Position numbers and translations under genes: made by a program. A stretch of DNA of 64,000 nt from contig NZ_CP014750.1 in the NCBI RefSeq assembly GCF_001592435.1, positions 248,001-312,000 on the forward strand, in the 5' to 3' direction. The notes under the pieces were generated by a model, which was given only the letters and a program-made list of their open reading frames with translations, was not told the origin of the DNA and ran no database searches. This stretch comes from Thermococcus peptonophilus. Its GTDB lineage: Archaea > Methanobacteriota_B > Thermococci > Thermococcales > Thermococcaceae. Positions 7,910 to 11,575 of the stretch are shown here, piece by piece. Position 1 is the first letter of the stretch, and every line of letters starts with the position of its first letter.

Positions 7910-7986
7910 GGGCCCGTGGTCTAGACGGTTATGACGCCACCCTTACAAGGTGGAGGTCCGGGGTTCGAATCCCCGCGGGCCCACCA
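7910..7986 (+). tRNA. tRNA-Val(UAC), CCA encoded
   Basis: Complete cloverleaf. Acceptor GGGCCCG pairs with CGGGCCC; D stem GTC/GAC; anticodon stem CCACC/GGTGG with loop CTTACAA, giving anticodon TAC; T arm CGGGG-TTCGAAT-CCCCG; discriminator A and a genomic CCA. Its 3' half from 7942 is the left attachment site of the integrated element, and the intact 5' half shows this is the original gene. Confidence 0.97.
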
Positions 7987-8301
7987 CAACCGCTCAAAAT
8001 CTTGCATGGAACCCTTTCTAAAGACTAACCCCTCTAAACTCTGTACTCCTTCTCCCAATTCCCCTATACGACCCTTTAAACCGTTTGAATCATTAGTTGG
8101 TTGTACAACTTTTCTGTTTGGTTGTACAACCCCAGGGTTCTCATCTCCATCCACGTATAAAACGAGGGCCCGCCTCCCATCAACTTCCCTTAACTCAATC
8201 TCAACTTCTTTTCCAATTAACCATCCAAATTCTCTCGGCAACCGTAATAAGGGATATATAAACCCATCCTTACTTTTACTCTGACTAATCCGCCGTTTCA
8301 T
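7921..8301 (-). pseudogene. Int(N): N-terminal part of split integrase
   Basis: N-terminal fragment of the element's integrase, interrupted by integration. The first 50 residues have a pattern like an AbrB/MazE strand-swapped DNA-binding domain (KDGFIYPLLRLPREFG then KEVEIEL); this is inference. The coding frame enters the tRNA as WWARGDSNPGPPPCK and then reads into host tRNA sequence to a stop at 7921. The ATG at 8301 is favoured, with GGGGGTG nine bases upstream; a GTG at 8313 is possible. Residues 1-120 belong to the reconstituted protein. Confidence 0.8.
7942..7988. repeat. attL, 47-bp direct repeat (tRNA 3' half)
   Basis: Identical to 10629-10675. It starts in the anticodon loop at CTTACAA and runs through the encoded CCA plus two bases. 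Identity stops at 7941 and 7989 against the right copy. Confidence 0.95.
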
Positions 8302-8313
8302 ATCCGTCCACAC

Positions 8314-8720
8314 CCCCGCTTAATGTCTCCCATGATTTTCTTCTAATCCCCCAAATTTTCTTCATCTTTGGGCGTCCTCATTCCCATCTCCTTTACGTAT
8401 CTACGTATTCCCCATACAAAAAAGTGTCGTATATTAATTGGCCCGACTATGATTTACCGTAACAACCTAATCTTCACACGTCCCGTCCATAGCATCCCCT
8501 ATAATGTCACTCTAGGTTTCCTGAGTATCCCCGGCCCATCCACTAACAAATCTGCAATAAGCCCCCCGTGATTCTGAACTTAAACACCGATCTGGCCATC
8601 TGTATAAACTTTTCAGAACCAGCGTCTTACCTCACATAATACCCCCAAATCCTTTTCATTTAACCCTATTATTATAAAATTGCTTCATTCCATCCTTTCT
8701 CCTCCCACCTCACAAAATAA
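8314..8720. other. Non-coding part of the element upstream of int
   Basis: About 400 bp without a convincing gene on either strand. On the minus strand AATTAATATAC around 8428-8440 could be the int TATA box, and ATTTTATAATAA near 8670-8685 is another A/T-rich promoter candidate. Very short frames (12-18 codons) are present but unsupported. Confidence 0.5.
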
Positions 8721-8819
8721 TGCTCGCACTACCCTATGATTTTTAGGCATTCAGTGCTCGCACATACCCTGATTTTTAACCGAAATTGCTCGCACTTGGA
8801 ACCCACTATCTACTCGTAC
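8721..8819. repeat. Iteron-like tandem repeats, about 33 bp
   Basis: TGCTCGCAC occurs at 8721, 8755 and 8787, and a degenerate copy TACTCGTAC at 8811. The first two copies are followed by similar blocks (ACCCT then GATTTTTA), so the units are 34 and 32 bp long. Short direct repeats at regular spacing in a small element's non-coding DNA resemble iterons of a replication origin or a regulator's binding array. Function is not shown. Confidence 0.75.
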
Positions 8820-8874
8820 CCTCTGAAATAACCCTCTCATTTCACAGCCCATGTCTCTCATTATAACCGGGCCT

Positions 8875-9036
8875 TCACTCAACCAAACCCGAAACGAACT
8901 CATAAATTGACTTGAACAACACGTAAATAATCAAGAACACCGCCAACATGAAAAGGAACGCCATGAATCCCTCCCGACTGAAAATAAAATACGCGCCAAT
9001 AACTACAAACAAAAGCCCGGCCTTATCAAGCCTCAT
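8875..9036 (-). CDS. Small membrane protein of the integrated element
   Basis: 53-aa protein, MRLDKAGLLFVVIGAYFIF at the start, with two hydrophobic stretches (about residues 7-19 and 25-41) separated by SREG and a short polar end. GGGGTGAG sits about seven bases before the ATG. It is the only gene other than int recognised in the element and follows int in the same direction on the circle. No family is recognised. A role in replication control or the envelope is conceivable, but nothing in the sequence decides this. Confidence 0.6.
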   Translation of the reverse strand: MRLDKAGLLFVVIGAYFIFSREGFMAFLFMLAVFLIIYVLFKSIYEFVSGLVE

Positions 9037-10129
9037 ACCCGACTCACCCCATCAAACTCCTTTCCCCTATCCACCCTGTGTTATTTTCCGCTATCCCACT
9101 TAACTTTAAGCCCCAATCATGCCAGCCCACCCCTTCTCTTCATCCCCCAACTTGAATCCTCGCGATTCTGTATCCACCACCTTACCCTCTGTTAGTGAAC
9201 CCATTAGCATTATCAAATTTCTGGCCTCCCACCCGGAAATAATGTGCTCTCCAACTTGTTCACAACCCTCGCATACTCCCGCTTCGCCTGATTAAGCAAA
9301 TTCAAATAATGCAACCCCATAATGTCACCCTGCAAACTATGCCCAACCATATACTTGATGACAACCTCGGGCACACCAAACTCCATCATCTTGTTAATGA
9401 ACCACTTCCGCAAATACTTCATCGGAGCACCACGCTTACCCGCATACGACCGCACCCTATCATAACTCGTATCCAACCTCCGCAACCCCCGAGCCAACCA
9501 AACCGGCATGAAAACCACATTCGACCTCTTAAACCCACGAACCCAATTCAGCTCATAGTAAGCGATTTCCTTCCCATTCACCCCCTCAATCTTCAACATT
9601 CTCCTATCAAACTCCCGCAAAACCTTAACCGCCTCCGCAATCCTCACCCCACCAAAAGCAGTCAATAAGAAGGCAAGGCAAACATCCTCCCTACCCTTCA
9701 CCTTCGAAAACCAGAACCGAACCTCCTTGTCAGTCGGCACGTACAAATCCACGCCACTCTTCTTCACCTTCAACACCCTCCGCAACTTAACCAACAACTC
9801 CGCATTAATCCGCTCCCTCATCTCAAGAAAGCTCAGTAAATTACGGAAACCATTGACAAACCGATTATTATGGTTCGTGGCCTCAAGAATCTCGACAACC
9901 TCAACAGGACTCCGAATAATCCGCTTACCCACAAACCTATCCAAAGCACTAATGTAGTCCCTCGCAACCGCCCTACTCACCCGACGCTCCAGCCACCGCT
10001 TAAACTCCTCCCTTACACTCCAATAATCCACCACCATATCTACTGAATTTATAAAATAAAACCCTCCTCCACCATCCACACCATTAACCACCTTATCAAC
10101 CATATTAACCGTATAATCCGTATTCACCT

Positions 10130-10500
10130 TATTGACATTAATAAGTGAATTGTTTACAGATGATACAAGGGATACGGATTTACGGATTACAGATGATACG
10201 GGGGCGGATTCTATGCGGTGCGGCCCTCCACCATCACCTACCCCCTTAACACCCTCCCCCACCATATCCACTTCATTCACCTTAATGTTATTAAGGTGGT
10301 TACGGTTAATGGATGATACGGATTTACGATTTACATGTTTAAATGGGGCAGAGGTTATGCGGTTCGCACCCGTACCACCATTATCCGAATCCGAACCACT
10401 CATACCCGGATCACCCACACCCTTTAATTCTATAAATTCCATAGAAATAGGGAGGTGGTTTACGGATCCGGATATGCGGATATGTGGTTCACTCGAATCA
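10130..10500. repeat. Imperfect repeats in the integrase linker
   Basis: Three related segments near 10147-10230, 10303-10365 and 10455-10485 on the + strand contain GGATTTACGGATT-like words and GATGATAC. In the protein they give two clear copies of a roughly 50-residue unit (RITSAPFKHVNRKSVS and RIESAPVSSVIRKSVS) and one weak copy. Confidence 0.7.
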
Positions 10501-10628
10501 CCCGAATGATTGGAACTCGAATCTCCACCCACCGACCTCCAATAACCCAAAACTAATCCATAAACATCCGAATCATTAATTTGCGGATTTTCAAAGTTCA
10601 AATTCGCGAATGGCATGCAATGCCAACT

Positions 10629-10675
10629 CTTACAAGGTGGAGGTCCGGGGTTCGAATCCCCGCGGGCCCACCACA
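10629..10675. repeat. attR, 47-bp direct repeat
   Basis: Right copy of the tRNA 3' half, identical to 7942-7988 (offset 2,687). It lacks the 5' half of the tRNA, so it is not a second tRNA gene. Confidence 0.95.
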
Positions 10676-10703
10676 GAAACTTTGCAGAGCAAAGTTCCAT
10701 CAA

Positions 10704-11575
10704 AGGTGGAATGTCCTTTTGAGTGTCCTGTTTTTTCAGTGATTCTCAATCATCAATTGGCAATTCTCAAGGGTTTACTCACAGTATAACGCCCTTCGGG
10801 CGTTAAAACGAAAGGAAAACCCTTATTCACCTGCAAGTTTGTCATGAGAATCCCAATTCTCAGCCAATTTTAAGAGGACATTCAAGCTTTTGGTGAAGCT
10901 TTTCCCAAAAGCTTCCTCGTGAAGTTTGATCAAGGTTCGTGGTTCTTCTTAGAATTGCCCTTCTACGAGGATTTTCACGATACACAAGCTAGTATTAGTG
11001 AATTCTCTGAGTTTTGAACTGTTGAAAAGGAGTTTCTAACATCTTGACGCCCTACGGGCGTCGATTAAAAAAGCAAACTCACAAAGAGCGAGCAAATAAA
11101 AATGGAATTCACAATCCATGACAGTATTCAAAAGGAAAATCCGCCCAAAATGCCCCCGTCAAACAAGAACTACAAACTTTGATGAAACTTTGCTAGGCAA
11201 AGTTTCCTGTACTCTCAAACCCCCCGAAGTGGGGCTTCGCCCCACAGCCCTCTTTTTCTTACTCCACTGGGGGGCTAACGCCCCCGCGCCCCCAGACATA
11301 TTGCTTGCACAAGCGCTTGTGGGAAGTTTTTGACTAGTATGCCTTGTCTTTACAATTTTGCAATTTCAAAAGGGTTTGCACACAACATAACGCTCAGAAG
11401 GTGTTAAAAATAACCCAAAGTACTTGACTAGTTAAAGAAGAATCCCCCTGTTTCACTGCTAATTCTCACAAAGACATCTGGAGTTTTGAAAAAGCTTCTT
11501 TCGATATCTTCAAAATTTCTCTACAAGAACAAGAAAAAAGAAGACAAGATTTTCCTAAGGTCTTCACCGGAAAAC
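10704..11575. other. Palindrome-rich intergenic region beside attR
   Basis: About 870 bp with no supported gene. It holds several short hairpins: AACTTTGCAGAGCAAAGTT (10679-10697), AACGCCCTTCGGGCGTT (10788-10804), GACGCCCTACGGGCGTC (11045-11061), AAACTTTGCTAGGCAAAGTTT (11185-11205), and a GC-rich block at 11221-11292. A roughly 55-bp imperfect direct repeat occurs at 10762-10821 and 11361-11415 (AGGGTTT, TAACGC, GTTAAAA, ACCC in order). It may be a decayed element or an accessory insertion zone. Confidence 0.6.

Follow-up and report, generated by a model that had tools for sequence, protein, structure and literature searches.

A 2,687-bp SSV-type element with a split integrase in a tRNA-Val gene of Thermococcus peptonophilus, probably reduced from a larger suicidal integrase element

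Suicidal integrases lose their own gene on integration, and how they persist is a puzzle; a locus of Thermococcus peptonophilus shows with how little DNA an element of this kind can make do. Within a 64,000-nucleotide stretch of this genome (contig NZ_CP014750.1, positions 248,001 to 312,000; "the window", whose own numbering is used below), a preliminary description had delimited a unit of only 2,687 bp, two-thirds of it integrase, and had proposed that it was a minimal self-integrating unit, a satellite of a larger plasmid, or a deletion product that kept its mobility. The target gene and the ends of the unit are as follows.

7910..7986, plus strand: tRNA-Val(TAC), the target gene, intact, its 3′ half supplied by the element (ARAGORN; Rfam RF00005, 70.4 bits)
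7942..7988, plus strand: attL, a 47-bp perfect repeat equal to the 3′ half of tRNA-Val (repeat comparison)
10629..10675, plus strand: attR, the displaced 3′ half of the host tRNA (repeat comparison; empty site in L038, L039, and L046)

The direct repeats at 7939-7988 and 10626-10675 are identical at 49 of 50 positions, and their perfect 47-bp block (7942-7988 and 10629-10675, spaced 2,687 bp apart) begins in the anticodon loop of tRNA-Val, two bases ahead of the anticodon, and runs to 2 nt beyond CCA. Since the single mismatch is C at 7941 but T at 10628, the exchange took place 3′ of this base, so that the present 3′ half of the tRNA is the element's and attR is the host's own. The close relative G011, which shares 92.5% of tgtA with the window, has the order tgtA, tRNA-Val, downstream DNA, and asnS without an insert, and the site is likewise empty in G022 and G002, where tgtA, tRNA-Val, and downstream DNA follow in the same order. 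The insert is therefore exactly the 2,687-bp unit, and the repeats, the intact tRNA, and the empty sites bear out the boundaries first drawn at the 47-bp repeats of the tRNA-Val 3′ half. A 47-bp att with an intact tRNA-Val also agrees with SSV-type integration, in which att sites of 40-50 bp lie in the tRNA 3′ half and the tRNA is regenerated.

Directly after attR, the non-coding DNA at 10676-11206 belongs to a dispersed repeat family with palindromic ends, which has 36 matches in the window genome, 55 in G011, and 31 in G022. The unit starts downstream of a tRNA on the sense strand in 18 of 20 cases examined, 11 of these 18 starts lying exactly 3 nt past the tRNA 3′ end and the rest at about +265, +295, +546, or +770. 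These starts describe tRNA-anchored arrays of roughly 260-bp units, and our literature search found no description of it.

Most of the element's coding capacity belongs to the two halves of one integrase gene.

7942..8301, minus strand: int(N), the first 120 codons, with its ATG at 8301 and reading into attL (conserved M-K-R/G start in alignment A2; pN/pS)
9213..10628, minus strand: int(C), 471 codons and a stop, with the PF16795 catalytic domain and a long linker (Pfam, PHROG, SSV1 structures)
9213..10040, minus strand: core-binding and catalytic part of Int(C) (invariant columns of alignment A1; SSV1 alignment)
10041..10628, minus strand: low-complexity Int(C) linker of ~195 aa with internal repeats (sequence, compared with relatives)

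Joined through att, int(N) and int(C) give 591 residues and a stop in a single frame, that is, att lies inside the integrase gene, the gene is split, and the frame is kept, as in SSV-type elements. Int(C) also has the domain expected of this type, Phage_integr_3 (PF16795; E = 4.2e-36; score 124.7 bits, cut-off 27), and matches the PHROG integrase phrog_5127 (E = 1.6e-45) and the catalytic-domain structures of the SSV1 integrase (3uxu/3vcf/4dks). Its catalytic residues are the R of GGVR, K of RGFK, R of KYLRK, H of GHS, and Y of LHY, and the active-site R, K, K-x-x-R, and Y are conserved in 7/7 aligned relatives (alignment A1). The joined translation and the alignments thus uphold the proposal that both halves enter att in the same frame, and the rebuilt 591-aa protein has the SSV1-type catalytic residues.

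Both halves are free of stops (~590 codons) and differ from their relatives mostly at third codon positions, with pN 0.17 vs pS 0.50 for Int(N) (window vs G066) and pN 0.31 vs pS 0.78 for Int(C) (window vs G062). With pN well below pS in each, int(N) and int(C) have evolved as a working gene, with purifying selection on both halves. The linker is less typical, at ~195 aa compared with 17-100 aa in relatives, repeated and rich in Ser, Asn, Gly, and Val, with coding repeats at about 10070-10510, and the unit is two-thirds integrase only when this low-complexity segment is counted. Divergent internal repeats of ~45-50 residues each, all in frame, have enlarged it across 10041-10628. Separately, a resemblance of the N-terminal domain to AbrB, seen by eye, was rejected as it had no Pfam support, and a single-sequence AlphaFold model (pLDDT 44) was too poor for use; a 29-bp int(N) match in G011 was rejected as a CRISPR spacer, lying in other sequence outside the array.

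The two halves are separated by 911 bp (8302-9212), which hold the following.

8302..8877, no strand: non-coding stretch with the same strong strand skew as the rest of the element (skew; tblastn)
8721..8796, plus strand: three direct repeats TGCTCGCAC, spaced 34 and 32 bp (0/2,000 dinucleotide shuffles)
8878..9036, minus strand: 53-aa hydrophobic ORF, a possible small membrane protein, orphan (ORF list; homology searches negative)

No homologue of the 53-aa ORF occurs in 94 Thermococcaceae genomes, which leaves its status as a gene uncertain, and it gave neither a PADLOC nor a significant Pfam match. What had been described as a small membrane gene and a repeat array is thus an uncertain gene call and two distinct repeat features, namely the array of three TGCTCGCAC copies, which may serve as iterons or as a site for a regulator, and the repeated coding sequence of the linker. 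The statement that the element has no replication protein held, with Pfam and PHROG searches matching nothing recognisable beyond the integrase, and a cryptic origin is possible. GC skew is −0.51 over 2 kb of the element against a window mean of −0.02 ± 0.10, spans coding and non-coding DNA alike (8000-10100), and may reflect one-directional replication or transcription, though it proves neither. The same strong skew marks the 4.06-kb relative of G066, and a strand bias of about −0.5 in small elements is seen both at window 8000-10100 and at L077 7600-11200.

Relatives were sought in 94 Thermococcaceae genomes and their loci then read individually, which gave these att-bounded elements.

4,058 bp, in tRNA-Val(TAC) (G066)
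5,585 bp, in tRNA-Val(CAC) (G062)
6,303 bp, in tRNA-Ser (G033)
8,190 bp, in the same tRNA-Val(TAC) locus as the window copy (G012)
8,532 bp, in tRNA-Tyr (G117)
8,606 bp, in tRNA-Val (G113)
8,751 bp, in tRNA-Val (G111)

The integrases of these elements and of the window form one Thermococcales clade (support 100/100) that favours tRNA-Val genes and stands apart from the pT26-2-type clade, and the window copy, at 2,687 bp, is its smallest att-bounded member. The window integrase groups with those of the 4.06-kb (G066) and 5.59-kb (G062) elements, themselves sisters, with support 97/94; the nearest integrases are only 50-52% identical to it over the catalytic part. Described SSV-type plasmids and viruses are indeed several times larger, as had been stated, but this does not extend to the sub-7-kb relatives in other Thermococcales; units of 2-3 kb with the same ends, also sought here, were not found in this group, its short relatives being of 4.06, 5.59, and 6.30 kb.

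Members of 2.7-6.3 kb have one common Int(N) type, Int(N) of relatives being 55-69% identical, whereas those of 8.2-8.75 kb have a different Int(N) and virus-like genes, including a D5-like primase-helicase or helicase-like gene, an ATPase, and small membrane proteins. The four larger elements (L032:644-8920, L082:1957-10650, L087:1224-10060, and L088:9920-18541), in tRNA-Val or tRNA-Tyr genes, each combine a suicidal integrase and ATPase with the D5-like protein or a 606-618-aa helicase-like protein and HTH proteins, two of the four having a 106-108-aa hydrophobic protein as well, and look like small undescribed viruses or virus-like plasmids. One Int(C) clade comes with two unrelated N-terminal types (window 7942-8301 vs L082, L087, and L088), which fits the published idea of hybrids made by recombination of int(N) and int(C) halves. 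In 3/3 other elements with the window's Int(N) type, a nuclease-like gene with an E-x-K motif adjoins int(C), the similarity among these genes being weak but significant (30% identity over 86-107 residues).

Int(N)-only remnants stand at tRNA-Val genes in G013, G031, G075, G099, and G102, and such orphan or decayed fragments show that members of the group erode. Orphan or decayed int(N) with no attR nearby were seen at L078:8753-9860, L080:8258-8620, L081:8623-9000, L085:9043-9434, and L086:9231-9622, those of G013 and G031 being nearly identical, with neighbouring cargo genes still present; a large inversion as the cause of the separation of Int(N) and Int(C) in G031 was rejected, as the peptide in its Int(C) is that of a different target site. 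No free form was found in viral contigs (protein, A1, and A2 queries) or plasmids (Int(N) query), and the sole match in genome contigs was the already known 8.5-kb relative in JdFR-02. In the literature found, the surrounding 4-9-kb tRNA-Val elements have apparently not been considered together as one group. The main paper on Thermococcales suicidal integrases is reportedly that of Badel et al. 2020 (MBE), which may already include the G066 or G062 elements.

From these comparisons, we consider the window copy to be, with reasonable probability, a reduced SSV-type "suicidal integrase" element that lost cargo, whereas both att sites and the split integrase stayed intact. The incoming element carried attP inside its integrase gene, and recombination in the anticodon loop and 3′ half of the tRNA restored the tRNA, moved the host 3′ half to attR, and in the same step cut the integrase into int(N) and int(C), as the sequence of the locus shows. 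The copy would derive from a larger, 4-6-kb element, having lost the nuclease-like gene beside int(C), and probably others, and retained the recombination module, the 53-aa ORF, and about 0.9 kb of mostly non-coding DNA. It would now be inert in place; exit, as a circle of 2,687 bp carrying an undivided int, would require the action in trans of a related intact integrase. Such a circle, with no recognisable replication gene, would depend on immediate re-integration or on the replication of a helper.

Loss is the simplest account because the window copy is nested beside the G066 and G062 elements and the nuclease-like gene is absent without trace. This is an argument from parsimony, as nuclease-like similarity is weak and we found neither a deletion intermediate nor a near-identical larger relative, so the earlier option of a deletion product is favoured by gene content on the integrase tree rather than proven by a close relative. 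Against it, tblastn found no remains of the relatives' cargo genes (nuclease-like and 178-aa) in 8302-9212, and with both int halves free of stops this could be a recent, complete copy and not a relic. That no replication gene can be recognised is in itself no sign of loss, since the 4-6-kb relatives have none either.

That same shared absence would suit a genuine minimal unit, in which integrase, att, and a short control region are already complete and the element excises and re-integrates with host replication between, a reading that we hold to be unlikely. The int halves are intact, in frame, and evolved under constraint, att is perfect over 47 bp, the repeat array could serve as a functional site, and Thaumarchaeota have an integrase element of 2.6 kb (PMC6563490). 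However, the integrase is split on entry, which makes self-excision impossible, no second copy of such size or content occurs in the 94 Thermococcaceae genomes, no viral contig matches, and 3/3 other elements with the same Int(N) type have more genes. It is quite improbable that the copy is a satellite which draws on a larger same-site relative, e.g., an 8.2-8.75-kb virus-like element, for integrase, replication, and possibly packaging. D5-type primase-helicase and ATPase genes are indeed present in elements of that size, related suicidal integrases can excise in trans (PMC8371274), and the 8.2-kb element of G012 lies in the same tRNA-Val(TAC), matches att over all 48 bp, and belongs to the same integrase clade; yet a conserved tRNA gene is expected to give att identity in any case, identity between the catalytic domains is only 45-48%, the N-terminal domains are unrelated, candidate helpers occur in other genomes only and not in that of the window, and no shared packaging or origin sequence was found. 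As the missing replication gene is general among small members, both readings stand alongside deletion. Very unlikely is an old insertion that, after in-place decay of its cargo, has lost its mobility and become a dead relic. The non-coding stretch 8302-8877, the common decay shown by orphan Int(N) fragments, and a somewhat longer Int(C) branch (0.53 vs 0.31-0.34 in its sisters) point that way, but ~590 stop-free codons, a perfect att, pN well below pS, and no visible post-integration damage speak against it.

For the reduced SSV-type element, mobility would be a matter of help from outside. In work summarised in PMC8371274, split integrase halves are largely inactive (inactive or nearly so), SSV2 and TKV4 are excised by an intact related integrase in trans, and expressed Int(C) has a role. 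Because the integrase gene is cut in two on insertion, exit without a helper integrase is improbable; "excisable in principle", as the preliminary description had it, applies only with an intact related integrase in trans, and a search of the genome for PF16795 integrases found the window's as sole match. We found no circular form, and departure probably depends on a related element that supplies an intact enzyme. A broader and rather doubtful extension is that small tRNA-Val elements (2.7-6.3 kb) without recognisable replication genes combine an integrase with exchangeable cargo and spread in this form through Thermococcales, virus-like elements of the same integrase clade resurrecting them in trans, with the window copy as the bare recombination module and the smallest self-splitting mobile unit known. 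The 2.7-kb copy is, in any case, a clean natural substrate for trans excision assays in a Thermococcus genetic system.

Among known systems, the 4.06-kb G066 element (69% identical in Int(N) and 50% in Int(C)) shares the tRNA-Val(TAC) target, architecture, and strand skew and likewise has no recognisable replication gene, but has a 401-aa nuclease-like gene, a 178-aa gene, and a shorter Int(C) linker. The 5.59-kb G062 element (Int(N) 53-60% and Int(C) 51% identical) differs in its five cargo genes, including a 347-aa nuclease-like protein and a 174-aa protein that is 78% identical to its G066 counterpart. SSV1, pTN3/TKV4, and the pT26-2 family likewise have attP in int, splitting into the tRNA 3′ half, PF16795, and the R-K-R-Y set (PMC8371274), but their virus or plasmid genes take up roughly 10-25 kb. 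The window integrase lies outside the pT26-2-type clade, in which pGE2 is joined by all remaining integrases, further ones of G011 and G066 among them, and the 2,687 bp have no room for, and none of, the 7-9 conserved pT26-2 core genes, nor the recognisable replication protein of an autonomous plasmid or virus. NitUzo-E2, a 2.6-kb cryptic integrated integrase element of Thaumarchaeota (PMC6563490), is comparable in size and in having an integrase, a few small genes, and no clear replication protein, but belongs to another phylum, has a wHTH gene, and was described as an ordinary integrase element, with splitting not noted. Since all testable SSV-type features are present in the window copy, it is an extremely small example of this known kind.
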